Source of the DNA: Azotobacter vinelandii CA
Lineage (GTDB): Bacteria > Pseudomonadota > Gammaproteobacteria > Pseudomonadales > Pseudomonadaceae
DNA: 64,000 bases
Direction: 5' to 3'
Assembly: GCF_000380335.1 (NCBI RefSeq)
Contig: NC_021149.1
Location: 1,736,001 to 1,800,000, forward strand
Part shown: positions 5,592 to 42,752 of the stretch, piece by piece
Numbering within the stretch: the first letter of the stretch is position 1
Layout: every line of letters starts with the position of its first letter
The notes under the pieces: generated by a model
The model's database searches: none
What the model saw: the letters and a program-made list of their open reading frames with translations, nothing else
Told to the model about the DNA's origin: nothing
Made by a program: the position numbers and the translations under genes

Positions 5592-5593
5592 GG

Positions 5594-6292: not shown

Positions 6293-6355
6293 GGAGTGCT
6301 CTCCGCTGGTTGTACGGGGCCGTCCGCCGCGATGCGGATCAGGCCGGGTGTTTCC

Positions 6356-6382
6356 TTGTCGTTGTCGTTGTCGTTGTCGTTG
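6356..6382. repeat. Hexanucleotide tandem repeat TTGTCG, 4.5 copies
   Basis: Four perfect TTGTCG units plus a half unit, followed by two GGCCGT units. It lies between the 3-hydroxybutyrate dehydrogenase stop and the scoA start, 65-90 bases before the scoA ATG. Copy-number change would alter leader length without touching a reading frame. Confidence 0.85.
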
Positions 6383-6433
6383 CGGCCGTGGCCGTGGCCA
6401 TCGTCGCTGCACCGTTCTCGTCGCCGGCGGGCG

Positions 6434-7207
6434 TCATTGCGCCGCCCAGCCGCCATCCATGTTCCAGGCCGCGCCGCGCACCTGGCTGGCCGCGTCGCTG
6501 CACAGGAACAGCACCAGCGCGCCGAGCTGCTCGGGGGTGACGAATTCCAGCGACGGCTGTTTCTCGGCCAGCAGGTCGTGACGGGCGGCGGCGGGATCGC
6601 CGCCGGCCTGGACGCGGGCGTCGATCTGCTGCTGCACCAGCGGCGTCAGCACCCAGCCCGGACAGATCGCGTTGCAGGTGATGGGGGTCTGCGCGGTTTC
6701 CAGGGCGACCACCTTGGTCAGGCCGAGCAGCCCGTGCTTGGCGGCGACGTAGGCGGACTTCTGCGCCGAGGCGACCAGGCCGTGCACCGAGGCGATGTTG
6801 ACGATCCGCCCCCAGTCGCGCCGGCGCATGCCCGGCAGGGCCAGGCGGGTGGTGTGGAAGGCCGAGGAGAGGTTGATGGCGAGGATGCTGTCCCAGCGCT
6901 CCGGCGGGAATTCCTCGACCGGCGCCACGTGCTGGATGCCGGCGTTGTTGACCAGGATGTCGACGGCGCCGAACTCGCTCTCGGCGAAGGCCATCAGCGC
7001 GGCGATTTCCTCCGGCTTGGACATGTCCGCCGGATGGTGGCGCGCTTCGTGGCCGTGCTGGCGTACCGCCTCCAGCGCCTGCTGCGCGTCGCCGAAGCCG
7101 TTGAGCACCAGGTTGGCGCCGGCGGCGGCCAGGCAGTGGGCGATGCCGAGGCCGATGCCGCTGGTGGAGCCGGTGACCAGGGCGGTCTTGCCGCTGAGGA
7201 TCGTCAT
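6434..7207 (-). CDS. bdhA: 3-hydroxybutyrate dehydrogenase
   Basis: NAD-dependent short-chain dehydrogenase of 257 residues that oxidises 3-hydroxybutyrate to acetoacetate. The cofactor loop TGSTSGIG is at residues 11-18, NNAG near 88-91, and the catalytic Ser and YVAAK are near 139-156. It ends in WNMDGGWAAQ, the usual C-terminus of this family. It sits between the permease gene and the CoA transferase genes on one strand, matching the P. aeruginosa arrangement of bdhA and its permease under HbcR. In PHB-storing relatives such as Azotobacter it would also serve mobilised polyhydroxybutyrate. Confidence 0.92.
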   Translation of the reverse strand: MTILSGKTALVTGSTSGIGLGIAHCLAAAGANLVLNGFGDAQQALEAVRQHGHEARHHPADMSKPEEIAALMAFAESEFGAVDILVNNAGIQHVAPVEEFPPERWDSILAINLSSAFHTTRLALPGMRRRDWGRIVNIASVHGLVASAQKSAYVAAKHGLLGLTKVVALETAQTPITCNAICPGWVLTPLVQQQIDARVQAGGDPAAARHDLLAEKQPSLEFVTPEQLGALVLFLCSDAASQVRGAAWNMDGGWAAQ

Positions 7208-7227
7208 GGGGGTGTCTCCGTATGTTG

Positions 7228-8619
7228 TCAGACCAGGCCGGTGAGGTAGAAGGTGGCGATCACCACGAATACCGCCAGGGTCTTGATCAGGGTGATGCCG
7301 AAGATGTCCTTGTAGGCTTCCCGGTGGGTCAGGCCGGTGACCGCCAGCAGGGTGATCACCGCGCCGTTGTGCGGCAGGGTGTCCATGCCGCCGCTGGCCA
7401 TGGCGGCGACCCGGTGCAGCACTTCCAGGGGGATCTGCGCGGCGTGGGCGGCGGCGATGAAGGTTTCCGACATGGCCGCCAGGGCGATGCTCATGCCGCC
7501 CGACGCGGAGCCGGTGATGCCGGCCAGCAGGGTGACGGTGACCGCCTCGTTGAGCAGCGGGTCGGGAATGCTCTTCAGTGCGTCGGCCAGCACCAGGAAA
7601 CCCGGCAGCGCGGCGATCACCGCGCCGAAGCCGTATTCCGAGGCGGTGTTCATCGCCGCCAGCAGCGAGCCGCCGACGGCGGTCTTGCTGCCCTCGGCCA
7701 GCCGGTCGCGCACCGCGCCGAAGCTGCTGACCAGCACCAGCAGGATGCCCAGCAGCAGCGCCGCCTCCACCGCCCAGATGGCGGTGATCCTGCCGATGTC
7801 GGTCTGCACCGGCGCGGCCATGCCGGCCAGTTGCAGGCTGTAGGTCTTGCCGTAGAGCGCGGGGATCAGGTGGGTGAAGAACAGGTTGGCGACGCCCACC
7901 AGCAGGAGCGGGGAGAGCGCCAGCCAGGGGTTGGGCAGCACCAGGTCCGCGGCGGTCTCCGGCTCGTTGCGCAGGTCGCTGCCGTAGCCCTCGCCGGCGG
8001 CGCGGGCCTTGCGCAACTGGCGCTGCAGGTAGAGCAGGCCGGCCGCGAGCACGAACAGCGCGCCGATCAGCCCCAGCCAGGGCGCGGCCCAGGCGTTGGT
8101 GCCGAAGAAGGCGCTGGGGATGATGTTCTGGATCTGCGGCGTGCCGGGCAGCGCGTCCATGGTGAAGCTGAAGGCGCCGAGGGCGATGGTCGCCGGGATC
8201 AACCGCTTGGGGATGTCGCTCTGGCGGAACATCTCGGCGGCGAACGGATAGACCGCGAACACCACCACGAACAGCGACACCCCGCCGTAGGTCAGCAGGG
8301 CGCAGACCAGCACGATGACCCGCATGGCCTGGCGGGTGCCGAACAGGCGGATCGCCGCGCTGACGATGGAGCGGGAGAAACCGGACAGCTCGATCAGCTT
8401 GCCGAACACGGCGCCGAGCAGGAACACCGGGAAGTACAGCTTGATGAAGCCGACCATCTTTTCCATGAACACTCCGCTGAAGGCCGGCGCCACCGCGCCG
8501 GGGTCGGTCAGCAACACGGCGCCGAGGGCGGCGATGGGGGCGAAGAGGATCACGCTGTAGCCGCGGTAGGCCGCCAGCATGAGCAGGGCCAGGGCGGCGA
8601 GGGCGACGATGACGCTCAT
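7228..8619 (-). CDS. GntP family permease, probably for 3-hydroxybutyrate
   Basis: Inner-membrane transporter, 463 residues, with about twelve hydrophobic segments spread over its length and the GntP-type motifs GGVSLFVVVFAVYPFA and GTPQIQNIIPSAFFGT in the first half and TGSASGGMSIALAA in the second. GntP members are proton symporters for gluconate and related hydroxy acids. Here the gene order (permease, bdhA, scoA, scoB, with HbcR upstream) argues for 3-hydroxybutyrate as substrate. It is the first gene after the sigma-54 promoter at 8739-8753 and lies 20 bases before bdhA. Confidence 0.85.
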   Translation of the reverse strand: MSVIVALAALALLMLAAYRGYSVILFAPIAALGAVLLTDPGAVAPAFSGVFMEKMVGFIKLYFPVFLLGAVFGKLIELSGFSRSIVSAAIRLFGTRQAMRVIVLVCALLTYGGVSLFVVVFAVYPFAAEMFRQSDIPKRLIPATIALGAFSFTMDALPGTPQIQNIIPSAFFGTNAWAAPWLGLIGALFVLAAGLLYLQRQLRKARAAGEGYGSDLRNEPETAADLVLPNPWLALSPLLLVGVANLFFTHLIPALYGKTYSLQLAGMAAPVQTDIGRITAIWAVEAALLLGILLVLVSSFGAVRDRLAEGSKTAVGGSLLAAMNTASEYGFGAVIAALPGFLVLADALKSIPDPLLNEAVTVTLLAGITGSASGGMSIALAAMSETFIAAAHAAQIPLEVLHRVAAMASGGMDTLPHNGAVITLLAVTGLTHREAYKDIFGITLIKTLAVFVVIATFYLTGLV

Positions 8620-8738
8620 CGGACGTCTCCTTGAACCTGTCGTGTCGGACGAAGGCCGTCAATGGCCGGCGCCGGGAACGCGCCACGGCAGGGATGTCGT
8701 TTTTATTTGGAATAGCGGAAAACCGTGGAAGGTACAGG

Positions 8739-8753
8739 GCGAGTTCCGTGCCA
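8739..8753 (-). promoter_or_regulatory. Sigma-54 promoter of the 3-hydroxybutyrate operon
   Basis: On the minus strand the sequence reads TGGCACG-GAAC-TCGC, matching the -24 element fully and the -12 element with one mismatch (TCGC for TTGC). GG and GC spacing is correct. It lies about 120 bases before the permease ATG and next to the gene for a sigma-54 activator. Confidence 0.8.
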
Positions 8754-8804
8754 GCTTTGGCGCTCCTTGATTTACAAGGATTTTTTCATGTGCTTTGGCG
8801 GCAA

Positions 8805-8896
8805 TTTCCCAAAGTTGGGAAAGGCGTGGTCGCAGGTCGGGCTGGTGCCCAGGGCAAGCGTGGGGCTATGGGATTCCCATTCATGGGATATTCCCG

Positions 8897-8905
<9 letters not shown>
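8805..8905. promoter_or_regulatory. Palindrome cluster, likely HbcR upstream activating sites
   Basis: Three inverted repeats share a TCCC/GGGA core: TTTCCCAA-AG-TTGGGAAA at 8805-8822, TCCCAT-TC-ATGGGA at 8875-8888 and TCCCGTTAACGGGA at 8892-8905, the last overlapping the hbcR stop codon. They lie 50-165 bases upstream of the sigma-54 promoter, where enhancer-binding proteins act. Assignment to HbcR is inference. Confidence 0.6.
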
Positions 8906-10297
<1,392 letters not shown>

Positions 10298-28739: not shown

Positions 28740-30005
28740 CTATTTCAGGCTGACCCGGAAGCAACTGCCGCTCGGCTCCAGGTCGCTCACTCGTACCTGC
28801 CAGCCCTGGTGCGTGCAGATCCGCTTGACCAGCGACAGCCCGAGGCCCAGCCCCTCGCCACGCGCCTGCTCGCCGCGCACGAAGGGCTGGAAGATGCGCT
28901 CGCGGTGCTCGGCGGGAATGCCCGCGCCGCTGTCCTCGACGCGGAATCCGCCCTTCTCGAGGATCAGCCGCACCGTGCCGTTCTCGGTGTAGTGCAGGGC
29001 GTTGCGCAGCAGGTTGGAGAGAACCGTGCTCAGAAAAGTGAGGTTGTAGGAGGCGCTGTCGGTGTCCTCCACGACCAGTTCGAAGTTCAGGCCCTTGGCG
29101 CGTATCGGTGGTCCCCAGCGCCGGCTCTGCTCCTCCGCCACGCTGGCCAGGGTGGCGCTGCCACCGCTGGCGGCCTCTTCGCGGCGGGCGCGGGCGAGGA
29201 TCAGGAAGGTCTGCACCAGCTCGTGCATTTCCTGGGCGGCCCGGCCGATCCGCTCCACCTGGCGGTTGGCCTGGGCTGGCAGTTCGGTTTCGCGCAGCAG
29301 TTCGCAGGAGCCTTGGATGACCATCAGCGGGGTGCGCAACTCGTGGCTGACGTCGCTGGTGAACAGGCGCTCGCGCTCCAGGCTCTGGCGCAACTGGCCG
29401 AGGGTGCTGTCGAAGGCCGCTGCCAGGTGGCCGACCTCGTCGTCGGGGTATTCCGGCGCCAGGGGCGGGGCCAGCGGCAGCAACTGGTCGCGGTGTCGGA
29501 CCTGGCGCGCGAGGCGAATCACCGGTGCGATCACCTTGCGCGCCAGCAGCAGGCCGAGCAGCCAGGCGCCGACCACGCTCAGCAGGAAGCTGAACAGGAT
29601 CCCCCGGAACAGCATCTGCTCGCGCGCCTCGAACTCGCTCTGGTCCTCCACCAGCATGTAGGTCTGGCCGTCGCGCTTCATCACGTAGATGTAGTAGGCG
29701 CGCTCGCCCTCGCGCAGTTCGCTGAAGCCTTTTTCGGCATGCCGCAGCGACTCGGGGATGGCGTAGGGCGGCAGGTCCGAGGCGAAGAAGCGGGTGGCCG
29801 AGTCCAGGCGCGGGATATGGCCCTGCCTGATGTCCTGGTTGATCACGGTGTCCAGTTCGCTCTTGAGTTCCTGGGAGACCAGGTGGCGCTCGACGAAGTG
29901 GACGATGGCGACGATGCTCAGGGAGAAGAAGCCGCTGACCACCAGGGTCATCAGGGTGAAGGCGATGACGATGCGTCGGGCGAAAGGCTGCTTGGGGTGT
30001 GTCAT
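28740..30005 (-). CDS. colS: Sensor histidine kinase ColS
   Basis: Membrane sensor kinase of 421 residues. Helix 1 at about 14-38, a periplasmic loop to about 145 with acidic ExxE-type residues as in metal-sensing ColS, helix 2 at about 146-172, then HAMP, the H-box FTSDVSHELRTPL near residue 225, N-box LLRNALHY near 335 and G-boxes VEDSGAGIP and GLGLGLSLV. ColS senses excess zinc or iron and envelope stress in pseudomonads. Its ATG 30005 lies inside an inverted repeat (30000-30048) related to a nearby mobile element, so the start codon and first residues are contributed by that repeat. Confidence 0.9.
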   Translation of the reverse strand: MTHPKQPFARRIVIAFTLMTLVVSGFFSLSIVAIVHFVERHLVSQELKSELDTVINQDIRQGHIPRLDSATRFFASDLPPYAIPESLRHAEKGFSELREGERAYYIYVMKRDGQTYMLVEDQSEFEAREQMLFRGILFSFLLSVVGAWLLGLLLARKVIAPVIRLARQVRHRDQLLPLAPPLAPEYPDDEVGHLAAAFDSTLGQLRQSLERERLFTSDVSHELRTPLMVIQGSCELLRETELPAQANRQVERIGRAAQEMHELVQTFLILARARREEAASGGSATLASVAEEQSRRWGPPIRAKGLNFELVVEDTDSASYNLTFLSTVLSNLLRNALHYTENGTVRLILEKGGFRVEDSGAGIPAEHRERIFQPFVRGEQARGEGLGLGLSLVKRICTHQGWQVRVSDLEPSGSCFRVSLK

Positions 30006-30049
30006 CCGTTGTTTCCTCGCAACGGGGAAATAATGGATGGCACGCCCTA
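30000..30049 (-). repeat. Collapsed inverted repeat forming the colR-colS spacer
   Basis: On the minus strand it starts at the colR TAG with AGGGCGTGCCATCC, continues ATTATTTCCCCGTTGCG, then mirrors itself as AGGAAACAACGGATGACAC ending in the colS start. Both arms resemble the ends of the element at 30893-31159. It is a near-perfect palindrome with no core, and should fold into a long hairpin in the colR-colS transcript. Confidence 0.75.
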
Positions 30050-30730
30050 ATTCGCGTCCGGGTTCTCCGCCAGGCGGTAGCCGACACCGTGGATGGTGTG
30101 CAGCAGGGGCTTGTCGAAAGGCTTGTCGAGCGCCTGGCGCAATTGGTGGATATGACTGCGCAGACTGTCGCTCTCCGGCAGGTCGTCGCCCCACAGAGCG
30201 TTCTCCAGGAATTCCCGGCGCACCACGGCCGGGCTCTTCTGCATCAGGATCGCCAGCAGCTTGTAGCCGATCGGATTCAGCCGCAGTTGCTTGCCGGCGC
30301 GGCTGACGTTCAGGGTGTCGAGGTCGTAGATCAAGTCGCCGACCTGCAACTGGCGCTTGCGGCTGCCCTGGGTGCGGCGCAGCACCGCCTCGATGCGCGC
30401 CACCAGTTCCGATAGGGCGAAGGGCTTGAGCAGGTAGTCGTCGGCGCCGCTGTTCAGGCCCTGCAAGCGGTCGTCCAGGGCGTCGCGGGCGGTCAGCATG
30501 ATGATCGGCGTCTCGCTGCCGGCATCGCGGCGCAGGCGCTCGCAGACCTGGTAGCCGTCGATGCCCGGCAGCATGATGTCCAGCACGATCAGGTCGTACT
30601 GCCCGGTAGCCGCCAGGTGCAGTCCGCTCAGTCCGTCCTGGGCGCAATCGACCGTGTAGCCCTTGAGCTCCAGATAGTCGAGCACGTTGGCGAGGATGTC
30701 GCGGTTGTCTTCGATGACCAGGATGCGCAT
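30047..30730 (-). CDS. colR: Response regulator ColR
   Basis: OmpR/PhoB-type regulator of 227 residues. The receiver has acidic ED at residues 7-8, phospho-acceptor Asp51 in LIVLDIMLPGIDG, Thr near 79 and Lys near 101 in YLLKPFAL; the C-terminal winged helix (about 130-222) contains NPIGYKLLAILMQ and HTIHGVGYRL. It pairs with ColS, 41 bases downstream. Known ColR regulons in pseudomonads include LPS and membrane genes. The stop TAG forms the edge of the collapsed inverted repeat. Confidence 0.93.
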   Translation of the reverse strand: MRILVIEDNRDILANVLDYLELKGYTVDCAQDGLSGLHLAATGQYDLIVLDIMLPGIDGYQVCERLRRDAGSETPIIMLTARDALDDRLQGLNSGADDYLLKPFALSELVARIEAVLRRTQGSRKRQLQVGDLIYDLDTLNVSRAGKQLRLNPIGYKLLAILMQKSPAVVRREFLENALWGDDLPESDSLRSHIHQLRQALDKPFDKPLLHTIHGVGYRLAENPDAN

Positions 30731-30892
30731 GGGAGGATTCTCGGAAGTGGCGGGGCCGATACTGTAGCAAGCCGCCGGCGGGCACGGCAGGCGAATGTTG
30801 CATGCGGAGGCTTCCGGCCGGGCCGGTGCGGGCGCGAAGTCCGCTCGTCGCATCCGGGCCTGCCCGCTCTTTTGCTGCTGCACACTGGTATC

Positions 30893-31565: not shown

Positions 31566-32096
31566 TCAGTCGGCCTTGGCTGCGCTGCCACGGGAGCATT
31601 TGGGATCGACGGTGAAGGTCCGGGAGACGTCCACCACGCCCAGGTGCCCCAGGGTCCGCCGGCCGATCAATACGGGGTAGTTCATCTTGCCGCGGTCGTT
31701 CAGGGAGAACTCCTCCTCGTAGATCTGCTTGCCGATGCAGATCTGCATCTTCACCACCGGCCGGCGTTCCGCGCCGCCGGCGCCGCGGACCTTCACGTTG
31801 CGCAGTACCCGGCGCTCGAACCTGGAATCGATCAGCTTGCCGGTGTCCTTGTCGGTCACCTCGACGTCGAAGCGTATCCACTCGTCGCCGTCGCGCTCGA
31901 AGCGCTGCAGATCCTTGGCGTCCAGGGAGGAGGTCAGGGCGCCGGTATCCAGCTTCATTTTCACCGGGATGTTCTCTGGTTCGATCGAACCCTTCTCGAT
32001 CCAGCCGAAGACCCGCTCGGGCGACTCGGCGGCGACGGCGGGGAGGGCGAGGGCGCTCAGCAGCAGCATCAGGGGAAGGGGCTTGGATAAACGCAT
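31566..32096 (-). CDS. Retropepsin-like aspartic protease (RimK-linked zinc-protease family, exported)
   Basis: 176-residue protein with a signal peptide (1-22, ending AVAA). The domain is the one annotated as putative ATP-dependent zinc protease, now seen as a retropepsin-like fold: the active motif KLDTGALTSSL is at about 48-58, and the flap/second half has MNYPVLIGRRTLGHLGVVDV. Unlike cytoplasmic relatives linked to RimK it is periplasmic. It is monocistronic and divergent from sixA. Substrate unknown. Confidence 0.8.
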   Translation of the reverse strand: MRLSKPLPLMLLLSALALPAVAAESPERVFGWIEKGSIEPENIPVKMKLDTGALTSSLDAKDLQRFERDGDEWIRFDVEVTDKDTGKLIDSRFERRVLRNVKVRGAGGAERRPVVKMQICIGKQIYEEEFSLNDRGKMNYPVLIGRRTLGHLGVVDVSRTFTVDPKCSRGSAAKAD

Positions 32097-32276
32097 GAGG
32101 TGACAGGCTCCTGGGGAAAATGGGCCCACCATAGTAGTTCGCAGGTGAAAGGAATGTCGCCGCCACGAACATCCGCCTGCCGGCCCGGCTCGCCTTTCGT
32201 AAGTCCGGCTTGCAAGGCGATGAGGCTGGACTAGCTTGTCAGTGTCGTCGTGAAGGCCTTGCCGGATGGGTTCTTG

Positions 32277-32759
32277 ATGAAAAAATTGTTTCTTATTCGT
32301 CACGCGAAATCGCCCAAGGAAGGCGCGGCCTTTTCCGACCGCGACCGACCCCTGGCGGAGCGTGGCAGGCGCGATCTGGAAAAAATGGGCAGGCGGCTGG
32401 CGAAGCGCTCGATAAAACCCGATCTGATCCTGTCGAGTCCGGCACTGCGCACGCTGGCGACGGCGGAAGGCATCGCCAGGCTTCTCGATTACAGCCTGAA
32501 GGACATCGAGACGGACGATCGGCTGTATGCCTGTCAGGCGGACGAGTTGCTCGACATCATCCGAACCCAGGACGACAAGCTGAAGAGCGTGCTGCTGGTC
32601 GGTCATAATCCCCAGTTGGCCGAGCTGGCCAGGCGTCTCTCGGGCAAGATCGGCCGCCTGCCGACCTGTTCCGTCGTCGAGTTCAAGTTCGATGCCGAAT
32701 CCTGGTCGAGCGTCGGGGAGTTCAAGCCGGCGAAAGTCAAGCTCGACCGTCCTAAGTAA
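32277..32759 (+). CDS. sixA: SixA-type phosphohistidine phosphatase
   Basis: Histidine phosphatase of 160 residues, small like E. coli SixA. The catalytic RHAKSP lies at residues 8-13, with the second His in LLVGHNPQL near residue 111 and Arg in LAERGRRD. SixA removes phosphate from histidine of phosphocarrier proteins. ATG 32277 follows KKLFLIRHA spacing of the family; a GTG at 32250 is possible but unneeded. It lies 302 bases upstream of a PhoU-like/dikinase-like gene pair on the same strand; the dikinase-like protein carries a phospho-acceptor His and is a plausible substrate (inference). Confidence 0.85.
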   Translation: MKKLFLIRHAKSPKEGAAFSDRDRPLAERGRRDLEKMGRRLAKRSIKPDLILSSPALRTLATAEGIARLLDYSLKDIETDDRLYACQADELLDIIRTQDDKLKSVLLVGHNPQLAELARRLSGKIGRLPTCSVVEFKFDAESWSSVGEFKPAKVKLDRPK

Positions 32760-33061
32760 GAAGGCCTGAGAACCGGTGTTTTCGAGGCTTCCGGCCGAGC
32801 GCAGGGCGCTCTCCCGCCGGCGCTCGAGCCCAGGCTCCTGGCCTGTCTTTCATGCAGGGCAGGTACAAATCCTCGAACGGGCCGGTTTTTGTCCGCAGGC
32901 GAAGCGCGATGCCACAGCCCTGCCCGAAGCGAAACGCCCGACTCGGCCCGGCAGCCGGGCATTGCCGTCCGTCGGCGGGCCGGCGTTGGCCACGGAACTG
33001 AAATTTGGCCGTTATAGCCTGGGTCGATGCCAAGCGTGGCGAGTTCGGATTCGAGGGGGCT
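32760..33061. other. Gene-free spacer between sixA and the PhoU-like gene
   Basis: 302 bases of high G+C with no supported gene, terminator or repeat. Whether sixA and the next genes share a transcript cannot be decided from it. Confidence 0.4.
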
Positions 33062-35002
33062 ATGGAGAAAGTCGATGTGGTCGCCTCTCTGGGGCAGATG
33101 CAATTGCTGCGTCCGGCCTGGGTCACCGCGGCGCTGGCGGCCAACGACCGCCTGAAGCTGTACCTGACGGTGTTGCAGGTCGCCCGGGCCCATGCCGAGC
33201 AGCCGGATACGCCGCCGCCGAATCTGGGTCATGAACTGGCCAGTGCGCAGGTCGGCGCCGCCTGGCTCAAGGATCTGCCCGGTACGGCCTACCGGGAGGG
33301 CAGGGACCTGCACATTCCCGATCTACCCCGTGTCGCCGCCCTGTTGCGGGACGATCTGCGCATCATGGCCCGGCCACTGCTCGAAGGCGCGGCCGAATCC
33401 GCGCTGGGCAGCCGGGTGGAGCACTGGTGCGCCTGGCTCGACACCCTGACCGACGACCGGCTGCAGGCGGCGCGGCTGAAGGCGCTGACCAGCGGCAGGC
33501 AGGATGGCGAGGACAGTCTGCACCTGTTGGTGATGGACTTGCACAAGGCGCTCAACCACCTGGCGGCCGAATTGTCGAGCGAGACCATCGACGGCGCCCA
33601 CGTCTGGGAACTCGCCGACGAGGACCGGCCACGGGTGGCCGCCTTCATGCGCGGGCTCAATCGCACCCGCGCGCTCAAGCTGGAGCATCCGGGCCTGGAT
33701 ACCGCCGCCACCCGTGGAGAAGGCCGCCTGCTGCTGCAGAACGACATCGGCGCCAACGACGTGCACGTGCTGGTGATTCAGGTGGAGGGGCTGCGCATCT
33801 CCCTGACCTACTCCGACCTGCACCGCCAGCGCTTCGCCTTTTTCCGCGCCATGCTGGCCGAACTCGGGGCCGACTGGTCCGGCCTGGAGACGCGGACCAC
33901 CGCGGGGCTGAACGCGGGCGAGGCCTACCATGTCGGTACCGCGACCTTCGCCTGCCGGGACGAGGCGGGGCTGCAGCGGACGCTCGAGGACATCGGCGCG
34001 CGGATCGTCTTCCTGATCGACTGGAACCGCGCCCGCAAGCGCCTGCAGCAGTTCGTCGACAAGTCCGACGCGGTGACCGTGCTCGCCGAGGCGGCCAGGT
34101 GCGGAGCGGGACACATGGGCTGGCTGGCGGCCGGCGGCGAACGCCTGATCTACACCGCCATGCAGGCCCTGGGCGCCGACTACTTCCATGTCGGCGACCG
34201 CCTCGACCAGGTGATGGGCGCCACCCAGGCCAGGGCCTTCCTGGTCGAGGTGCTGAAGCTCGCCAGCCAGGCGATGCGCCAGCGCCAGCCCGTCGCGCTG
34301 ATCGAGGACGAGACGCGGCTGCTGCTGGTCCGCTACCTGCTCAGGCGGCGCGACGAATTCGACCTGCTGGCCGAGCATGCGGCGTATTGCCATGAACTGG
34401 CCATGGGGGTGCGCGATGCGCTCGCCCATGGCCGGCAGTACGACCGCAAGGCGGCGCTCAGGCTCGCCGAGCGGGCCAAGGAGTGGGAGCGTCAGGCCGA
34501 CCTGCTGGTGATGCATTCGCGTCGCCGCGCCGAACGCCACCCGCGCTGGGACCCGTTCAGCCGCCTGATCGAGCGGGCCGACGATGTGGCGGATTTCCTG
34601 GAGGAGGCGATTTTTCTGTTATCGCTGATCGCCGACGGCCATCACCGGGGCTGGCAGGGCGAGGTGCAGCAGACGATGCAGCGCCTGGCCGATGGCGTCC
34701 TGGCGGCCATGCAGGACCAGGTGAAGGCGCTGGCCGTCGCCAGCACCCTGAACGAGCAGAGCAGCGGCGCGGACCACGAGGAGTTCGTCGCCGCGCTGTG
34801 GCGGGTCCTCAATGCCGAGCGCCAGTGCGACGGCCTGTTGCGCGAGGTCCGGCGGGTGCTGGCCGAGCATGTGTCCGATTGCGCGACGCTGAGCCTGAGC
34901 ACCGATTTCGCCAATGCCCTTGAGCAGTCCACCGATGCGCTTCTGGCCACCGGCTACGGTCTGCGCAAACTGTCGTTCAACCGGCTGGGAGGCGAGATAT
35001 GA
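33062..35002 (+). CDS. Large protein with C-terminal PhoU/DUF47-like helical domain
   Basis: 646-residue soluble protein. I do not recognise the first 430 or so residues, which are alpha-rich and include DVHVLVIQVEGLRISLTYSDLHRQRF and a helical YTAMQALGADYFHVGDRLDQVM. The C-terminal part (about 460-640) resembles DUF47/PhoU: EWERQADLLVMHSRRR followed by LIERADDVADFLEEAIFLL, the paired acidic metal motifs of that family. ATG 33062 is chosen over ATG 33005 for a better fit, though neither has a strong ribosome site. The stop overlaps the dikinase-like start by 4 bases (ATGA), so the two proteins are made together and probably bind each other. Confidence 0.7.
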   Translation: MEKVDVVASLGQMQLLRPAWVTAALAANDRLKLYLTVLQVARAHAEQPDTPPPNLGHELASAQVGAAWLKDLPGTAYREGRDLHIPDLPRVAALLRDDLRIMARPLLEGAAESALGSRVEHWCAWLDTLTDDRLQAARLKALTSGRQDGEDSLHLLVMDLHKALNHLAAELSSETIDGAHVWELADEDRPRVAAFMRGLNRTRALKLEHPGLDTAATRGEGRLLLQNDIGANDVHVLVIQVEGLRISLTYSDLHRQRFAFFRAMLAELGADWSGLETRTTAGLNAGEAYHVGTATFACRDEAGLQRTLEDIGARIVFLIDWNRARKRLQQFVDKSDAVTVLAEAARCGAGHMGWLAAGGERLIYTAMQALGADYFHVGDRLDQVMGATQARAFLVEVLKLASQAMRQRQPVALIEDETRLLLVRYLLRRRDEFDLLAEHAAYCHELAMGVRDALAHGRQYDRKAALRLAERAKEWERQADLLVMHSRRRAERHPRWDPFSRLIERADDVADFLEEAIFLLSLIADGHHRGWQGEVQQTMQRLADGVLAAMQDQVKALAVASTLNEQSSGADHEEFVAALWRVLNAERQCDGLLREVRRVLAEHVSDCATLSLSTDFANALEQSTDALLATGYGLRKLSFNRLGGEI

Positions 35003-36618
35003 ATCCGCGGAGCGAATCGCATCGGGATGTGGAGGAGCGCGATCCGCTGCGTCTGGTCCTGTCCATCGGCGCCGGCGTGACCCTGCCGGAGGAGGCTTCG
35101 CCGGCTTCCCTGGGGTTCAAGGCCTGGAACCTGGCGCGCATGGCGGCGATGGGACTTCCCGTGCCAGCGGCCTTCGTCATCGGCACCGGCTGGTGCGGCC
35201 GGGAAGCGCCGGACCCATGTCTCTGGCAGCAGGCGCTGCAGCGGCTGGAGCGGGAGAGCGGCCTCGGCTTCGGCGATGCGCGGCGCCCGCTGCTGCTGTC
35301 GGTGCGCTCGGGCGCGCCGGTTTCCATGCCGGGGATGATGGATACGCTACTCGATATCGGGCTCACCGAGGTGACCCTGCCGGGTCTGGTGCGGCTCACC
35401 GGCAACCCCCGGCTCGCCTGGGACGCCTACCGCCGTCTGATCGCCGGCTACGGCGAAGTGGTCGCCGGTATCGACGGGCGGCATTTCGAAGCGGACCTCG
35501 ATGCCGTGCGCGGCGATGGCGACGAGCACGAGCTGGATTTCGCCGCCCTGCGCGACATCGCGAAGCGCCATCTGGCCACCTATGCGCGGGAGGCCGGCGA
35601 AGCCTTCCCGCAGGACCCGCAGGTCCAGTTGCGCGCGGCGGTCGTCGCGGTCTTCGCCTCCTGGTACGGCGACAAGGCCCGCGCCTACCGCGAGTTGCAC
35701 GAGTTGCCCGCGTCCCCGGGAACGGCGGTGACGGTGCAACGGATGGTGTTCGGCAATGCCGGCGGCATGTCCGGGGCGGGAGTCGGTTTCACCCGCGACC
35801 CGAGCAGCGGCGAACCCTCGCCCTGGGTCGATTTTCTCTTCAATGCCCAAGGCGAGGACGTGGTCAGCGGCCGTCGCCGCGCCCAGAGCCACGAAGAACT
35901 GGCCGCCGTGGCACCACAGATCTGGGAAGCGCTGCTGAAGACCATGACGCAGCTCGAACAGGGCTTCGGCGATATGCAGGACTTCGAGTTCACCGTGCAG
36001 GACGGCCAGCTTTACCTGCTGCAGACCCGCGACGGCAAACGCACGCCGCAGGCGGCGGCGCGTATCGCCCTCGATCTCTGCGACCAGGGCTTGATCCCGC
36101 GGCGCATCGCCCTCGAACGGACCCGGGGGCTGGATGCCCGGGCGCTGGCGGTGCGCAGGCTGGTGAGCGAGGCCGGCCGGACCGTCGAGCCCCTGGCCCG
36201 CGCGACGAGCGCGGCCGGCGGCGTGGTGTGCGGCGAGATCGCCTTGGACGAGGCGCGGGTACGGGCACGCAAGGAGGCCGGCGCCAGCGTGCTGCTGGTG
36301 CGGCGCGATGCCGAGACGCGCGATCTGCCGGCCCTGCACCTGGCCGACGGCCTGCTGACCCAGCGGGGCGCGCGCACTTCCCATGCCGCGGTGGTGGCGC
36401 GTCAGTTGGGCAAGGTCTGCCTGGTCGGTTGCGACAGCCTGACGATCGACGAGGCCGATCGCAGCCTCTCCATCGGCGGGCTGGCGCTGCGGGAGGGCGA
36501 TCCGCTCACCCTCGACGGCAACGAGGGCGTTCTGTACGCCGGCGCGGCACGGATGGGGGAACAGGTGGCGCAGGATCTTCTCGAGCGCCTCGAACGCTTG
36601 CGTCATGAGCCACACTGA
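34999..36618 (+). CDS. Pyruvate phosphate dikinase-like protein lacking the PEP barrel
   Basis: 539 residues against about 880 in pyruvate phosphate dikinase. The ATP-grasp part is well kept: LGFKAWNLARMAAMGLPVP at the start, LSVRSGAPVSMPGMMDTLLD near 97-116, GNAGGMSGAGVGFTRDPSSG near 252-271 and LYLLQTRDGKRTPQAA near 335-350. The phosphohistidine domain follows, with GARTSHAAVVARQLGK: His462 is the phospho-acceptor and Thr460 the neighbouring regulatory residue. The protein then stops; the C-terminal TIM barrel that binds PEP or pyruvate is missing. It could phosphorylate its own His from ATP and pass the phosphate to an unknown acceptor, much as rifampin phosphotransferase does with a different partner domain. 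Coupled to the PhoU-like gene. Confidence 0.82.
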   Translation: MNPRSESHRDVEERDPLRLVLSIGAGVTLPEEASPASLGFKAWNLARMAAMGLPVPAAFVIGTGWCGREAPDPCLWQQALQRLERESGLGFGDARRPLLLSVRSGAPVSMPGMMDTLLDIGLTEVTLPGLVRLTGNPRLAWDAYRRLIAGYGEVVAGIDGRHFEADLDAVRGDGDEHELDFAALRDIAKRHLATYAREAGEAFPQDPQVQLRAAVVAVFASWYGDKARAYRELHELPASPGTAVTVQRMVFGNAGGMSGAGVGFTRDPSSGEPSPWVDFLFNAQGEDVVSGRRRAQSHEELAAVAPQIWEALLKTMTQLEQGFGDMQDFEFTVQDGQLYLLQTRDGKRTPQAAARIALDLCDQGLIPRRIALERTRGLDARALAVRRLVSEAGRTVEPLARATSAAGGVVCGEIALDEARVRARKEAGASVLLVRRDAETRDLPALHLADGLLTQRGARTSHAAVVARQLGKVCLVGCDSLTIDEADRSLSIGGLALREGDPLTLDGNEGVLYAGAARMGEQVAQDLLERLERLRHEPH

Positions 36619-36928
36619 TGGGCATGGAGGCGTTTTCGCCAATGGAGGCCTGTCGGCGACGAGTCGGCTTGGTTAGCATCCGGGCCAGGAGACGTCTTTT
36701 CCATTTCTAGGCGGCGCCCATGCGCATCACCATCGAGCAAATCGTCGGATAGGCCGGTTGCGCGGTCTGGCTCGATGGCTGCCGGTCGGTGGGCGGCGGA
36801 GGCTTTCGTCGAGCGACTGCACGCGGCTGCCGGCTTCCCATCGCTGGCCGGCCGGTCTCGACAGCGCCCGGCCCGCCCGTTCGAATGATGCATGGGTTCG
36901 GCCGATCCGGCCGCAGGAGTACAGGGAT
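36619..36928. other. Gene-free spacer before the CHAD gene
   Basis: 310 bases; the frame of the CHAD gene is open from 36758 but the codons before 36929 show no domain and lack a ribosome site. No terminator was recognised. Confidence 0.4.
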
Positions 36929-37690
36929 ATGCTCGTCGACGAACTGATCGAACAGATGGTGGCCCTGGAGGCCGAGTTGCAGGCTTGCGGCAAGCGTCTG
37001 GAGGCGCGCAGCGACGGCGAGGCGTTGCATGATCTGCGCGTCGCCGTGCGTCGCCTGCGCAGCATTCTGCGTCCCCTGCGCGACCTTCCCGACATCGGTG
37101 CGCTGGAGGAGGTCGCCGCCGCCGTCGGTCATCGGAGCACGTCCTTGCGCGATACCGAAGTCCTGATCCAGGAGTTGGCGGCGCGCGAACGGCCGGAGCT
37201 GGGCGAGTCCCGCCGGCAGGGGCTGGAAGCCGGCTACGATGCCCTGCTGGCCGGTCCCGAGTGGCTGCTGTTGCGCAACGCCCTGGCCGCCTGGCCGGCG
37301 ATCTGCCGCGAGGCCAGGCGGGAAGGGAAGCTCAAGGGATTGGGCAAGCACATCCGCAAGGAGCTGGCGAAGCAGCGGCGCAAGCTCGGCAGGGAACTGC
37401 GCGATCCGAACCATGACCGCCACCGGCTGCGCGTGCGGATCAAGCGGGTACGCTACGCCGCCGAGGTCTATCCCGATCTGTCCGACCTGCCGGACAAGGC
37501 GCCCAAGCGCCTGAAGGAGGCGCAATCGGCCCTGGGCGACTGGCACGATTGCATACAGTGGCTGCAGCGGGCCGGGCAGGAGGCCGATCTCCAACCGTTA
37601 TGCACGGCTTGGCGCCAGGCCCTGGTCGACGCCGAGCAGCGCTTGGACCAGGCGCTGAAGCCGCTTCTCAAGGCGTTTCCCGCGGATTGA
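36929..37690 (+). CDS. CHAD domain protein (polyphosphate-binding type)
   Basis: 253-residue helical protein. The CHAD signature is clear: EALHDLRVAVRRLRSILRPL near residues 32-51 and HRLRVRIKRVRYAAEVYPDL near 169-188, two copies of the His/Arg/Lys-rich helical hairpin that binds polyphosphate. CAGGAG before ATG 36929 fixes the start. Some CHAD proteins are fused to CYTH triphosphatase domains; this one is not. It follows the dikinase-like gene on the same strand, linking that system to polyphosphate by neighbourhood. Confidence 0.87.
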   Translation: MLVDELIEQMVALEAELQACGKRLEARSDGEALHDLRVAVRRLRSILRPLRDLPDIGALEEVAAAVGHRSTSLRDTEVLIQELAARERPELGESRRQGLEAGYDALLAGPEWLLLRNALAAWPAICREARREGKLKGLGKHIRKELAKQRRKLGRELRDPNHDRHRLRVRIKRVRYAAEVYPDLSDLPDKAPKRLKEAQSALGDWHDCIQWLQRAGQEADLQPLCTAWRQALVDAEQRLDQALKPLLKAFPAD

Positions 37691-38364
37691 CTCCAGGGCC
37701 TCGGCCAGAGTGCCGGCGGGCCGCGTTCGGCCACGCCGTTTTCCCGGTCGTGGGCGTACCGATCGACGGGGGCCCCGACTCCGTCGGTCGGCCCGGCCCG
37801 CAATCTTCCCGATGGCCAAGAGTCATCGTCGTGCGGGGCGCTGGCGCGGTTCTTCGAAAAACGGGAACAGGCGCTCCGCTCGAGCGACGTTTTTCACATA
37901 ACTACCAGTCAATTTATCCTGACATATAACTTTCATATTCTTTCCTTGCTATCGATTGGCATGCAACGTGCCTCTGTTGAACAGTCGAGAATTTCTTGTA
38001 ATATCCTGAAATACATTTTTGGGAGGCTCTGGACCGCCCGTTGGAAGGGCCTGGAATAAACGATTTTTTCACGAATCGGCTGAGGGAAAGTTCATCGGAA
38101 ATGCCCCGTGCGCTCTTCGGAGTGCATGGCGTTATTTCCCGAGCGGAATGATGAGAAGCAGGTCGTCAATCTAATAACAAGAAGCTCTCTTTGACGAGGC
38201 TTCGCCGGTAACGGCATCAAATTGGATCAGGTAGAGAAATGGCCCGTCTTGTCCGGATATGCCATTCGGGGGCTTTTCGTCTTCGAAGGACCGGCGGGAT
38301 ACGGCTTTGTTCAATCTTTCTCGGGGCCATTTGAAACATGCCGATGGCCTCCGGAGATGAATCG
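37691..38364. other. Long AT-rich leader upstream of dabA
   Basis: About 670 bases without a supported gene. From about 37880 it is markedly AT-rich (for example the stretch 37905-38020), unlike the coding DNA on both sides, and must contain the dabA promoter. I found no LysR-type (T-N11-A) site convincing enough to list and no regulator gene is adjacent. Confidence 0.5.
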
Positions 38365-40875
38365 ATGAGCGCCAGATCAGAAAATCCAGTGCAGTCCGCT
38401 CGTTTCGACGAGGCGACCGTATTGCACGAGCTTGAGCACTATCTTCCGAAACAGGCTCCGCTGAAGGATTTCGTTCACCACAATACCTTGCATGCTTTCC
38501 AGGATTCGAAGTTCCACGATGCGGCGAGAAATGCCTCGGGTATCTTCGGATACAACCTGTCTTTGAAACTGGATAAATACCGCGACCTTTATCATCGCGG
38601 CGAGATAACGCCGGCCGTGCTGGACTGGGTCGTCCGTCGCCACAAGGGCGATCAGTCCGACCTCTGGAAGACCAAGGTCGTCGCGGGCAGCTTCGCGCCG
38701 CCGCCCTTGCCGCGCATCGGTGCGGTGCGGGCGAACTGGAAGAAGAACCTGCGGATCGACCTGGACTCGCTGGTGCATCCGTTGCTGTTCCGCATTCTCT
38801 GCAGCTATCTCGACCAGGGCATCTCGATGTGGACCTTCCCGTCCGGCGGCGAGGGTTTCCTGTGCGCCATCCGCGAACTGGAGCGCCACAGCTTCACCAG
38901 CTTCTTCCGCCGCGAGCGGGCGCGCCGGCTGCTGCTCGAACAGGACTGTTCCATCGCCGGCCTGCTGAAGCTCCTGGTGCGCGACGAAGCGCTGTTCGAG
39001 CGCTACCTGTTCGACCAGCAGTTCGCCCATCCGGGCTGGTCGGGCATGGTCACGGTGATCGAAGCGCAGCCCGATACCCTGATCGACAGCCGCAGGATCG
39101 GCCTGCGCGAGCTGATCGTCTTCGAGTTGCTCCTGGAGATCGACGCGCTCGACGAGCATTTCGACGAGCAATGGAGCCCGCTGGAGGCGGAGCTGGGCGG
39201 CGAGCCGCTGGACATCCTCGCCGAGGTGCCGCGCACCGAGCTGCACGACGCCCTGGCGATCTGGCAGGAGGCGCTGGAGTGGAGCTTCTACGATCCCGTG
39301 CTGAGCGCCATCCAGCGCCAGCCCGCGGAAAGCCCGGCGCTGCCGGTGAAGAGCTTCCAGGGCCTGTTCTGCATCGACGACCGGATCTGCTCGTTCCGCC
39401 GGCACATCGAAAGCCTCGATCCGCACTGTGAAACCTACGGGACACCGGGCTTCTTCGGGGTGGAGTTCTACTTCAAGCCGGAGAACGCCAAATCCCACAC
39501 CAAGGTATGTCCGGGATCGATCGAGCCCCGATACCTGATCAAGGAAACCGGCAGCCGGGACAGGCTCGAGGCCGAGCCGCACTTCAGCAAACACTCGCAC
39601 GATCTGCTCGGCGGCTGGGTGATCTCGCAGACCCTCGGCTTCTGGTCGGCGGTCAAGCTCTTCGACAGCATCCTCAAGCCCTCGGCGAGCCCGCTCGGCG
39701 CCTCGTCCTTCCGGCACATGGACCGTGCCTCCAGCCTGACCATCCTGAACCGTTCGCCGGACGACCGCGAGGATGGCCTGCAGATCGGCTTCAGCGTCGC
39801 GGAGATGGCCGAGCGCGCGGAAAACCTGCTGGGCAGCATCGGCCTGACCCAGGATTTCGCGCCCATCGTCTACGTGGTCGGGCACGGCGCGAGCAACACC
39901 AACAATCCGCACTACGCCGCCTATGACTGCGGGGCCTGTTCGGGGCGGCCGGGCTCGGTGAACGCGCGGGTGATCTGCTTCATGCTCAACCACCCCGAGG
40001 TGCGCGCGATCCTCGCCGGCAAGGGCATCGAGATCCCGGCGGCGACCCAGTTCGTCGGCGCGCTGCACGACACCACCCGCGACGAGATCGCCTTCTACGA
40101 CGAGGACTCGCTCAGCCCCGATAGCCGCGCCCGGCACCGGGCCAACGCGGCGGTATTCGACAAGGCCCTGGCGCTCAACGCCAAGGAGCGCTCGCGCCGC
40201 TTCGAGCTGACCGACAGCCAGCAGTCGCCGGAGCGGGTGCACGAGGCGGTCAAGGCGCGCGCCGTGTCCCTGTTCGAGCCGCGCCCCGAGCTGAACCACG
40301 CGACCAACGCGCTGTGCATCGTCGGGCGCCGCTTCCTGAGTCGTAAGCTGTTCCTAGACCGCCGATCGTTCCTCAACTCCTACGACTACCGCGTCGATCC
40401 GGACGGCAGGTTCCTGCTCGGCATCCTGCGCGCCGCGGCGCCAGTCTGCGGCGGGATCAACCTGGAGTACTTCTTCTCCCACGTGGACAACCAGAAGCTG
40501 GGGGCGGGCAGCAAGCTGCCGCACAACGTGATGGGCCTGATCGGCGTGGCCAACGGCAACGACGGCGACCTGCGTCCCGGCCTGCCGAGCCAGATGATCG
40601 AGGTGCACCACCCGGTGCGAATGATGATCGTCGTCGAGCATTTCCCCGCAGTGGTCCTGAACACCATCCGCCAGCAGCCGGCCACCTGGGAGTGGTTCGC
40701 CAACGAATGGCTCAACCTCACGGTCGTCGACCCCGAGACCCACGAGCTGTTCCGCTTCCGGGACGGCATCTTCGAGCCGTACCGAGCGCTGACCGAACGG
40801 CTCGAGGTCGCCGCGGACCTCGAAAAACTCTTCGAAACCCAGGCGGACAACCTGCCTGTCCTCGCGTTGAGCTAG
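38365..40875 (+). CDS. dabA: Inorganic carbon uptake protein DabA (DUF2309)
   Basis: Cytoplasmic, membrane-associated zinc protein of 836 residues that with DabB drives bicarbonate accumulation; it is distantly related to beta-carbonic anhydrase. The zinc set is intact: Cys336 and Asp338 in LFCIDDRICS, His507 in VVGHGAS and Cys522 in YDCGACSGRPG, with the same spacing as in characterised DabA. The motif VHHNTLHAFQDSKFHDA near the N-terminus is also typical. ATG 38365 has GGAG 8 bases upstream; an earlier ATG at 38338 is weaker. It is followed after 8 bases by dabB. Confidence 0.92.
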   Translation: MSARSENPVQSARFDEATVLHELEHYLPKQAPLKDFVHHNTLHAFQDSKFHDAARNASGIFGYNLSLKLDKYRDLYHRGEITPAVLDWVVRRHKGDQSDLWKTKVVAGSFAPPPLPRIGAVRANWKKNLRIDLDSLVHPLLFRILCSYLDQGISMWTFPSGGEGFLCAIRELERHSFTSFFRRERARRLLLEQDCSIAGLLKLLVRDEALFERYLFDQQFAHPGWSGMVTVIEAQPDTLIDSRRIGLRELIVFELLLEIDALDEHFDEQWSPLEAELGGEPLDILAEVPRTELHDALAIWQEALEWSFYDPVLSAIQRQPAESPALPVKSFQGLFCIDDRICSFRRHIESLDPHCETYGTPGFFGVEFYFKPENAKSHTKVCPGSIEPRYLIKETGSRDRLEAEPHFSKHSHDLLGGWVISQTLGFWSAVKLFDSILKPSASPLGASSFRHMDRASSLTILNRSPDDREDGLQIGFSVAEMAERAENLLGSIGLTQDFAPIVYVVGHGASNTNNPHYAAYDCGACSGRPGSVNARVICFMLNHPEVRAILAGKGIEIPAATQFVGALHDTTRDEIAFYDEDSLSPDSRARHRANAAVFDKALALNAKERSRRFELTDSQQSPERVHEAVKARAVSLFEPRPELNHATNALCIVGRRFLSRKLFLDRRSFLNSYDYRVDPDGRFLLGILRAAAPVCGGINLEYFFSHVDNQKLGAGSKLPHNVMGLIGVANGNDGDLRPGLPSQMIEVHHPVRMMIVVEHFPAVVLNTIRQQPATWEWFANEWLNLTVVDPETHELFRFRDGIFEPYRALTERLEVAADLEKLFETQADNLPVLALS

Positions 40876-40883
40876 GAGTCGCC

Positions 40884-42752
40884 ATGGCTTCCGCACTGCA
40901 GATCTTCATCTTTCTACCGCTGATCGGCTTCCTGATCAGCCTGATCCACCCGGAACGGGACGAGAAACGGATCTCGCGCACCGCGCTGGTCACGGTCGGC
41001 GTCAACCTCGCCGGCTTCGTCCTGTTCCTGGCGTACTGGGCGCTGCGCGGCTTTCCCACCCTGGAGTTGAAGGATTTCGTGCTGTTCCACACGGACAGCT
41101 ACGAGTTCTACATCGACTTCCTGTTCGACCGGATCACTGCGACCTATGTGCTGGTCGGTACCTTCCTGACCTTCATGGTGCTGCTCTACAGCCGCCACTA
41201 CATGCACCGCGAGGCGGGCTATAAGCGCTTCTTCAGCACGGTGCTGTTCTTCTACGCCGGCTACGACATGGTGGTGTTCTCGGGGAACATGGAAACCATG
41301 TTCACCGGCTGGGAAGTGCTGGGGATCACCTCGTTCCTGCTGATCGCCTTCTACCGGGACCGCTACCTGCCGGTGAAGAACGCGGTCAAGGTGTTCTCCA
41401 TCTACCGGATCGGCGATGTCGGCCTGCTGCTGGCGATGTGGATGATGCACCACCTGTTCCACGCCAACGTCAGCTTCCACATGCTCGAAGACCGGGCCTT
41501 CGTGCTCGAACACTTGCAGCCGCACTCCCTGGTCGGCGTGTTCATGGCGCTGATGATCCTGGTGGCCGCCGCCGCCAAGTCGGCGCAACTGCCGTTCTCC
41601 AGTTGGCTGCCGCGGGCCATGGAGGGACCGACGCCGTCGAGCGCGATTTTCTACGGCTCGCTGTCGGTGCACATCGGGGTCTTCCTGTTGCTGCGCACCG
41701 CGCCGCTCTGGCGCGACCAGCCGTCCGTCTGCCTCGTCGTCGGCCTGCTGGGCGCCTCCACCAGCATCGTCGCGACGGTGATCGCCCGCTCGCAGTCGGC
41801 GATCAAGAGCCAGATCGCCTACGCCTCCATCGCCCAGATCGGTCTGATCTTCATCGAGATCGCCGCCGGTTTCGACGCCCTGGCCCTGGTGCACTTCGCC
41901 GGGAACGCCTTCCTGCGCACCTACCAACTGCTGGTTTCGCCGTCGGTGGTGGCCTACTTGATCCGCGAGCAGTTCTACAACTTCGTGCCGCGGCAACACC
42001 ATGCCAGGTGGGTGCTGCCGAAGAAGTTCATGTATTCGCTCTACATGCTCTCGGTGCGCGAGTTCGACCTGGATGCCTTCATGTACCGCAGGTTGTGGAA
42101 CCCCATGAAGAATCTGGGGCGGCGCCTGGACTTCCTGACCTTCTGGCGGGTCGTCGGCATCTTCGTGCCGGTCTATCTGCTGGGGCTGTTCCTGGTCTAC
42201 AACCGTGAGGCGTTGCCCGGCGCGGTCACGGAAATCCTGCCGGTGATCTTCGCGGCGATGGCGGCGGTGCTGGTGCTCAAGTCCTTCACCGAGCGCCGGC
42301 GCGCCCGGATGGCCTGGCTGCTGGCGATCCTGACGCACTTCTGGATCGCCCTGGCCACTTCCTTCAACGCCGACTTCGGCTTCAGCGAAAGTTACCTTTA
42401 CCTGAGCGGCGTGGCCCTGGCCGGAGTCGTCGGACTTCTCTGCCTGCGGCGACTCAAGCATCTCGAAGGCGATATCGATCTCGACCGCTTCCATGGCCAT
42501 TGCCGGCAGCATCCGAAGATCGCTTTCGTATTTCTGCTGAGTTGCCTGTGCGCCACCGGTTTTCCGATCAGCCCGACGTTCATCGGCGAAGACCTGATGT
42601 TCGCGCATATCGAGGAAGGGCAGATCGGATTGGCCTTTTTGACCAGCTTCAGTTTCGTCCTGGTCGGCCTGTCGATCATCCGCATCTACGCGCGGGTATT
42701 TCTCGGACCACATGCCAAGTCGGTCTACGAGGTGGCCTACAAGTCTTCCTGA
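40884..42752 (+). CDS. dabB: DabB, proton-conducting subunit of the bicarbonate uptake complex
   Basis: Inner-membrane protein of 622 residues related to NuoL and MrpA. About fourteen helices are visible, with the antiporter core motifs GWEVLGITSFLLIAFYRDRY near residues 142-161 and AAKSAQLPFSSWLPRAMEGPTP near 230-251, including the conserved Glu and Lys of the proton path. It energises DabA by the proton gradient. TAGGAG precedes the ATG 8 bases after the dabA stop. It is not a respiratory complex I gene, as no other nuo genes are present. Confidence 0.9.
   Translation: MASALQIFIFLPLIGFLISLIHPERDEKRISRTALVTVGVNLAGFVLFLAYWALRGFPTLELKDFVLFHTDSYEFYIDFLFDRITATYVLVGTFLTFMVLLYSRHYMHREAGYKRFFSTVLFFYAGYDMVVFSGNMETMFTGWEVLGITSFLLIAFYRDRYLPVKNAVKVFSIYRIGDVGLLLAMWMMHHLFHANVSFHMLEDRAFVLEHLQPHSLVGVFMALMILVAAAAKSAQLPFSSWLPRAMEGPTPSSAIFYGSLSVHIGVFLLLRTAPLWRDQPSVCLVVGLLGASTSIVATVIARSQSAIKSQIAYASIAQIGLIFIEIAAGFDALALVHFAGNAFLRTYQLLVSPSVVAYLIREQFYNFVPRQHHARWVLPKKFMYSLYMLSVREFDLDAFMYRRLWNPMKNLGRRLDFLTFWRVVGIFVPVYLLGLFLVYNREALPGAVTEILPVIFAAMAAVLVLKSFTERRRARMAWLLAILTHFWIALATSFNADFGFSESYLYLSGVALAGVVGLLCLRRLKHLEGDIDLDRFHGHCRQHPKIAFVFLLSCLCATGFPISPTFIGEDLMFAHIEEGQIGLAFLTSFSFVLVGLSIIRIYARVFLGPHAKSVYEVAYKSS

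Follow-up and report, generated by a model that had tools for sequence, protein, structure and literature searches.

The closest described relative of the system presented here is PPDK (pyruvate, phosphate dikinase; TIGR01828, structures 1kbl, 1dik and 2x0s), in which an ATP-grasp domain and a swivelling phosphohistidine domain are followed by a C-terminal barrel for PEP (phosphoenolpyruvate) and pyruvate. An ATP-grasp domain and a swivel histidine are also found in RPH (rifampin phosphotransferase), whose swivel histidine domain serves a non-pyruvate acceptor. Dikinase chemistry that is spread over two polypeptides is described, in excerpts of PMC12167813, for HpeHI, CreHI and the phenylphosphate synthase PpsAB. 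We analysed a 64,000-nt stretch of the Azotobacter vinelandii CA genome (NC_021149.1; ‘the window’ hereafter), positions 32277–37690 of which encode a PhoU-like protein (PhoUL), a dikinase-like protein without the barrel (DK), a SixA-like histidine phosphatase and a CHAD protein. An earlier note on this DNA had placed these four genes on one strand and proposed that they form a single system; ORFs (open reading frames) and family matches agree with the placement, whereas of the proposed system it is the PhoUL–DK pair that is retained among relatives. No title or abstract describing this pair turned up in our literature searches, and from its sequence and surroundings PhoUL–DK is probably a machine for phosphate transfer that has not been described before and is linked with the storage of energy.

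To examine the conservation of the locus, a four-sequence PhoUL alignment was scanned against genome contigs, which gave 453 relatives, and the best 80 loci were retained, all of them titled as proteobacteria or proteobacterial metagenome-assembled genomes. Adding two plasmid loci (L035 and L036) and a further one obtained in a draw of genomes (L038) gives a set of 83, from which a second Methylocella record with its genes in pieces (L037) was excluded. In 82 of these 83 loci, DK is the next gene downstream of PhoUL and has the same orientation; in the 83rd (L084) the contig ends 166 nt past the PhoUL match. The loci are relatives and not independent of one another, and their genes were called by a simple script. 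The ATGA overlap of the PhoUL stop and the DK start, already pointed out in the window, is correct, and the same spacing of −4 was found in 58 of the 76 loci in which it is measurable. In addition, we drew genomes using PhoUL or its N-terminal region alone, without regard to DK. Among 398 genomes of the phylum PhoUL was found in three new ones (four with the window's own genome), and among 337 of one class in nine, with one genome common to both draws. DK follows PhoUL in 11/11 drawn genomes, a set that is not fully separate from the 83 loci as one member (G939) is probably the same genome as L072. A DK profile run on the 337 genomes gave nine scores of 585–865 bits, and the genomes to which these belong are precisely the nine that have PhoUL; the next score down, 537 bits, marks the onset of long PPDK frames. 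These data exclude chance for the PhoUL–DK pairing and show that the conserved unit is this pair, a strict two-gene unit in scattered proteobacteria. On Methylocella tundrae plasmids the pair is intact in NZ_CP139088 (L036) and annotated as short pieces in NZ_LR536451 (L037), where the neighbouring genes are likewise in pieces and sequencing errors are possible.

The DK protein matches the ATP-grasp family PF01326 (3.5e-35) and the phosphohistidine swivel family PF00391 (7.4e-18) and aligns with PPDK over residues 37–529, ending at the start of the PPDK linker to the pyruvate/PEP barrel. Its identity to the ATP-grasp and swivel domains of PPDK is approx. 37–48%, and PPDK structures are its top fold matches, with RPH a weaker one; RPH differs in being a single chain with another domain order and another substrate domain. 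The description of DK in the earlier note, i.e. a dikinase-like protein with intact ATP-grasp and phosphohistidine domains and no barrel, extends to its relatives. Of the ATP-grasp residues that we take, from PPDK work, to be the important ones, Lys41, Arg103, Glu330, Gln342 and Arg344 are kept in 59–60 of 60 aligned relatives and Asp328 in 57. Residue 462, the histidine of the TSH motif shared with PPDK, is histidine in 58 of the 60 rows, and the two exceptions (L048 and L089) appear frame-disturbed. By homology, DK is predicted to load His462 from ATP. Despite this likeness, TIGR01828 scores 483.6 bits on DK against a cut-off of 843.45 and covers positions 17–517 of 865, such that DK has neither the C-terminal PEP/pyruvate barrel nor a full-length model score. 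In a tree of 56 rows, 26 DKs form one clade with a branch support of 100/100, apart from 28 full-length PPDKs, and on this phylogenetic and domain evidence DK is not a true PPDK, from which it also differs by its obligatory PhoU-like partner. Truncation by assembly error was ruled out by the single clade and by a common end, as in 20/20 genomes with the pair the TIGR01828 match on DK ends at position 482–523 of 865.

Full-length PPDK is absent from 17 of these 20 genomes and present in three, and together with the position of PPDKs as the closest relatives of DK this might suggest a remnant or variant PPDK that uses a barrel in trans and still forms PEP. We regard such an enzyme as very improbable, because each of the nine genomes (of 337) with DK and PhoUL has at least one additional PPDK-type match, which indicates that DK is no simple PPDK replacement, and because no barrel is visible in the PhoUL model described below. 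A split PPDK with a free-standing barrel was also sought in the window's own genome and rejected, all three of its barrel domains lying in frames of 832–977 amino acids. Another barrel-less dikinase lineage was seen at L039 (approx. 7600–9460) and L040, on the PPDK side of the 56-row tree; these dikinases adjoin a helical-looking protein of approx. 200 residues and, by eye, acyl-CoA synthetase- and biotin carboxylase-like genes. They bring to mind the short PpdK of mycobacteria (cf. PRK05878 scores).

The partner, PhoUL, had been described as a 646-residue protein with a PhoU/DUF47-like end, and this is borne out by PF01865 (PhoU_div/DUF47), which matches residues 429–621, i.e. the last approx. 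220 residues only, with 26.1 bits against a cut-off of 24.4 and which reaches E≤0.01 in 49 of 57 PhoUL members. The start methionine is supported by the alignment of relatives. A structure model of PhoUL has a mean pLDDT (predicted local distance difference test) of 89.5 and a pTM (predicted template modelling score) of 0.61, and its best Foldseek matches in the PDB are the PhoU proteins 3l39 (TMt 0.78), 2iiu (0.79) and 2olt, within a range of 0.76–0.79 and none with E<0.001. We place these matches on the C-terminal domain because the matched lengths and the Pfam coordinates fit. This domain also has four acidic pairs of the ExxxD/DxxxD type (Glu476/Asp480, Asp507/Asp511, Glu586/Asp590 and Glu621/Asp625), which are conserved in 56–57 of 57 rows and match the E(D)xxxD metal motif named for PhoU proteins in excerpts of PMC5686610. 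PhoUL nevertheless differs from the PhoU proteins in the fold list, which have approx. 205–225 residues, in that its PhoU domain follows 430 other residues in the same chain and has a dikinase as its partner.

For this N-terminal region, residues 1–430, we found no Pfam or NCBIfam family, no PDB sequence match in a profile search and nothing convincing in Foldseek lists against the PDB or BFVD (viral), the sole fold hints being weak YbjN-family lines with E values of approx. 0.6 to 1.1. Its conservation is extensive. Six histidine residues (His154, His161, His209, His235, His254 and His351) are identical in 57/57 rows, as are several aspartate, asparagine, glutamine, arginine and lysine residues, among them Asp159, Asn227, Asp228, Asp233, Asp252, Asp320, Arg325 and Lys326, and the same invariant residues were present in 14/14 rows of a second alignment that included two divergent members. 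In the nine genomes the region always lies inside a frame of 640–700 residues. From its conservation, the invariant His/Asp cluster looks like an active site.

The job of the PPDK barrel must be done elsewhere, and PhoUL alone accompanies DK in every case, which makes a two-protein dikinase the simplest model. On balance we think it probable, with some reserve, that PhoUL and DK are the two subunits of one phosphotransferase, which belongs to the PPDK/PEP-synthase superfamily and shares out its tasks in a new way, with the PhoUL N-terminal region as the second site. In such an enzyme DK would, following PPDK chemistry, pyrophosphorylate His462 from ATP, and one phosphate would pass to Pi (inorganic phosphate) as in PPDK, leaving His462-P, AMP and PPi (pyrophosphate), all reversibly. 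The swivelling histidine domain of DK would then visit the PhoUL N-terminal region in place of the barrel, and phosphate would be passed to, or taken from, a second substrate bound at the invariant His/Asp cluster. The PhoU domain would perhaps bind metal or phosphate and set the direction or act as a gate. The gene context suggests that the role of the enzyme may be the handling of high-energy phosphate under limited respiration.

PhoUL and DK are encoded by two strictly paired genes and may divide a dikinase function between them in the manner of HpeHI and PpsAB. The known two-protein dikinases phosphorylate small molecules, as excerpts of PMC12167813 describe. An enzyme of this type is possible, if doubtful; a particular organic molecule would bind to the N-terminal region of PhoUL and be phosphorylated there, AMP and PPi (or Pi) being released. 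It would suit a barrel-less DK with a dedicated partner as well as the several catabolic or fatty-acid genes among the neighbours. However, HpeHI, CreHI and PpsAB have the swivel on the same chain as the substrate domain and the ATP-grasp domain on a chain of its own, whereas DK keeps both ATP-grasp and swivel, and the partner is of another kind, an N-terminal domain without a known family followed by a PhoU domain; as far as that partial source goes, PhoUL–DK is therefore a different split with a different partner. In addition, a PhoU domain would be unexpected in a catabolic enzyme, and no one catabolic pathway recurs beside the pair, the recurrent genes being those of storage and fermentation.

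The neighbourhood search suggested in the earlier note also bears on SixA and CHAD. In the window, SixA matches PF00300 (1.1e-12) and has 66.6 bits with TIGR00249, below the cut-off of 74.5, and CHAD has 90.3 bits with PF05235 against a cut-off of 25.6; the ATG at 36929 is a likelier CHAD start than the TTG at 36758, and the gene ends at 37690. Gaps of 302 nt (SixA to PhoUL) and 310 nt (DK to the CHAD ATG) flank the pair on either side, and the four genes are therefore not one tight operon. A profile search of all frames detected CHAD in 12 of the 83 loci and SixA in four; the profiles were built from members of these same loci and the window, so that divergent copies may be missed. All four families lie close together in four loci. 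In three of them, from Halomonas (L042, L043 and L044), SixA and CHAD are fused in one ORF of approx. 473–488 residues beside the pair, pointing away from PhoUL; in the fourth (L074) a SixA 51% identical with that of the window directly follows DK and a CYTH–CHAD gene lies upstream. Neither SixA nor CHAD was found in the 12 loci of the drawn set (11 new loci and L038). These counts rule out the four genes as a conserved unit, leaving of the earlier proposal the pair, which co-occurs in scattered proteobacteria, the retained ATP-grasp and phosphohistidine residues, an enrichment of CHAD and the Halomonas fusions.

CHAD is present at approx. one copy per genome (43 of 50 genomes have at least one), and approx. 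0.4 loci with CHAD near the pair would be expected by chance, scaled to 83 loci, compared with the 12 seen; this expectation comes from a 49-genome subset that was chosen after the neighbour clusters had been seen and holds 11 of the 12 CHAD loci, and its probabilities are therefore overstated. As CHAD is far above chance but absent from the drawn set, its link with the pair is real but optional. SixA and CHAD also occur together away from the pair in seven genomes (G274, G275, G277, G278, G279, G286 and G296), and so look like a module of their own; G275 has a second SixA–CHAD fusion frame elsewhere in its genome. Taken together, we regard SixA and CHAD as accessory partners, which some lineages have, that of the window among them.

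SixA removes phosphate from phosphohistidine. CHAD proteins other than the present ones bind polyphosphate, according to excerpts of PMC6537752, and archaeal gene groups with SixA, PPX and CHAD are named in excerpts of PMC10892726. A regulatory phosphorelay could be built from such parts, in which DK phosphorylates a histidine residue of PhoUL, the PhoU domain converts this into a phosphate-control output, SixA dephosphorylates and CHAD links the relay to polyphosphate, and the Halomonas fusions, the SixA gene directly after DK in L074, the 12 CHAD loci and PPK2, found by motif near the pair in two of the 83 loci, are in keeping with it. We consider this relay rather unlikely, given the rarity of SixA beside the pair, the absence of both proteins from the drawn set, their occurrence together without the pair in seven genomes and the score of the window SixA under the TIGR00249 cut-off. 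Moreover, the six histidine residues and the acidic residues of PhoUL resemble an active site more than a single phospho-acceptor.

Other neighbours were clustered over 84 loci, with family names taken from one representative per cluster. Recurrent near the pair are a MaoC–phosphotransacetylase/acetate kinase cluster (13 loci), PhaC (15 loci, six of them Thauera), FabI (11), a PAS histidine kinase (14), CYTH–CHAD (9) and a P-type cation ATPase (8). Acetate kinase, present at approx. one copy per genome, lies inside the pair locus in five of 49 genomes. Phosphotransacetylase begins 36 nt after DK in L117 and 52 nt after it in L115, and PhaC follows DK on the same strand in L090 and L107. In G643, from another class sample, phosphoketolase and acetate kinase lie directly upstream of PhoUL–DK, all on one strand (L137, 10416–14043, minus). 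A PHO4-type phosphate transporter has one member in each of two, partly overlapping, neighbour lists. In the Methylocella locus L036, the pair is immediately preceded by a set of fatty-acid β-oxidation genes of the same orientation (3642–9741). The lxa (low-oxygen-activated) locus of Burkholderia cenocepacia holds a phosphate acetyl/butyryl transferase and a PHB (polyhydroxybutyrate) reductase, according to excerpts of PMC6127331, and Burkholderiales clusters beside the pair hold similar phosphotransacetylase/PHB-type genes, whereas universal stress proteins, the mark of lxa, are not among the top 25 neighbour families per list. Membership of the pair in the lxa locus, which these genes had prompted us to consider, was rejected, as the excerpts of PMC9104464, PMC6127331 and PMC3759415, for the terms that we used, name neither DK nor a PhoU-like gene.

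We also searched the 250 nt before PhoUL in 43 dereplicated loci for boxes with up to two mismatches to what we take to be the FNR/ANR consensus. Such a box was present in 25/43 loci, compared with 54 of the 438 remaining genes in these loci (p 4e-11) and five of 42 sequences before DK. With at most one mismatch the counts were 10/43 and 19/438. The boxes start 89–117 nt upstream of PhoUL in 20 of the 25 cases. Through these putative FNR/ANR-like boxes, oxygen control would be mainly a feature of Burkholderiales and some Mesorhizobium. For the second substrate, the gene context points to stores of high-energy phosphate and of carbon (acetyl-phosphate, PHB and polyphosphate) more than to a particular catabolic compound, and it speaks for acetyl-phosphate and PHB metabolism as much as for polyphosphate.

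Several observations weigh against a two-subunit phosphotransferase with a role of this kind. The pTM of 0.61 does not fix the relative arrangement of the PhoUL domains, and it was from lengths and Pfam coordinates, not from Foldseek ranges, that the PhoU fold matches were assigned to the C-terminal domain. The context is not uniform, most neighbours being diverse and mostly single occurrences; nitroreductases were the commonest in the last neighbour scan, at four of 121, and the drawn set has PhaC in none of 12 loci and acetate kinase in one. No FNR-like box was found before PhoUL in the window, Azotobacter, Halomonas or Thauera, and at up to two mismatches it occurs in only two of the 11 newly drawn loci, approximately the background, so that oxygen control appears to be confined to part of the family.

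A more specific form of the two-subunit enzyme would be a reversible converter between a non-pyruvate store, such as polyphosphate or an acyl phosphate like acetyl-phosphate, and ATP made from AMP and PPi through His462, in which phosphate from the store enters the PhoUL N-terminal domain and the PhoU domain senses phosphate and sets the direction. We offer this form as speculative and improbable; if true, cells short of oxygen would have in it a histidine relay that connects AMP/PPi with a reserve of phosphate, unlike PPK1, PPK2 or acetate kinase.

The features of the locus are given in Table 1. Upstream of it, an OmpR-type response regulator and a HAMP histidine kinase form a two-component system (28740–30820, minus), and an RloA3 retropepsin-like aspartic peptidase (NF052264, above cut-off; 31566–32171, minus) is divergent from SixA. 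The genes directly 3′ of CHAD (38338–42752) encode DabA (PF10070) and a DabB-like NuoL/antiporter protein, which make up a pair for the uptake of inorganic carbon; after them comes a SulP transporter reaching 44554.

Table 1 Features of the PhoUL–DK locus, in positions of the window
Feature	Position	Strand	Description and basis
SixA-like histidine phosphatase	32277–32759	+	160 amino acids; optional partner; ORF and PF00300
PhoU-like protein (PhoUL)	33062–35002	+	646 amino acids; ORF, ATG start
PhoUL N-terminal region, residues 1–430	33062–34351	+	Without known family; invariant residues
PhoUL C-terminal PhoU/DUF47 domain with E/D-xxx-D motifs	34352–35002	+	PF01865, Foldseek, conservation
ATGA, PhoUL TGA stop overlapped by DK ATG	34999–35002	+	Sequence
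Dikinase-like protein (DK), barrel-less	34999–36618	+	539 amino acids; ATP-grasp and phosphohistidine swivel; PF01326, PF00391
His462 codon of DK (TSH motif, predicted catalytic phosphohistidine)	36382–36384	+	Alignment with PPDK 9pzl/1kbl
CHAD protein	36929–37690	+	253 amino acids from ATG; optional partner; PF05235

The strict pairing says that the ATP-grasp/phosphohistidine engine of PPDK may be coupled here to a previously unrecognized second site and a PhoU sensor. Metabolic models probably mistake PPDK-like genes of the DK clade for enzymes that form PEP. Both proteins of the pair are short and look soluble, and bacteria that have them are easy to grow. The second substrate, once found, would extend phosphate and energy metabolism by one reaction and give a concrete handle on how PhoU-type domains sense phosphate.

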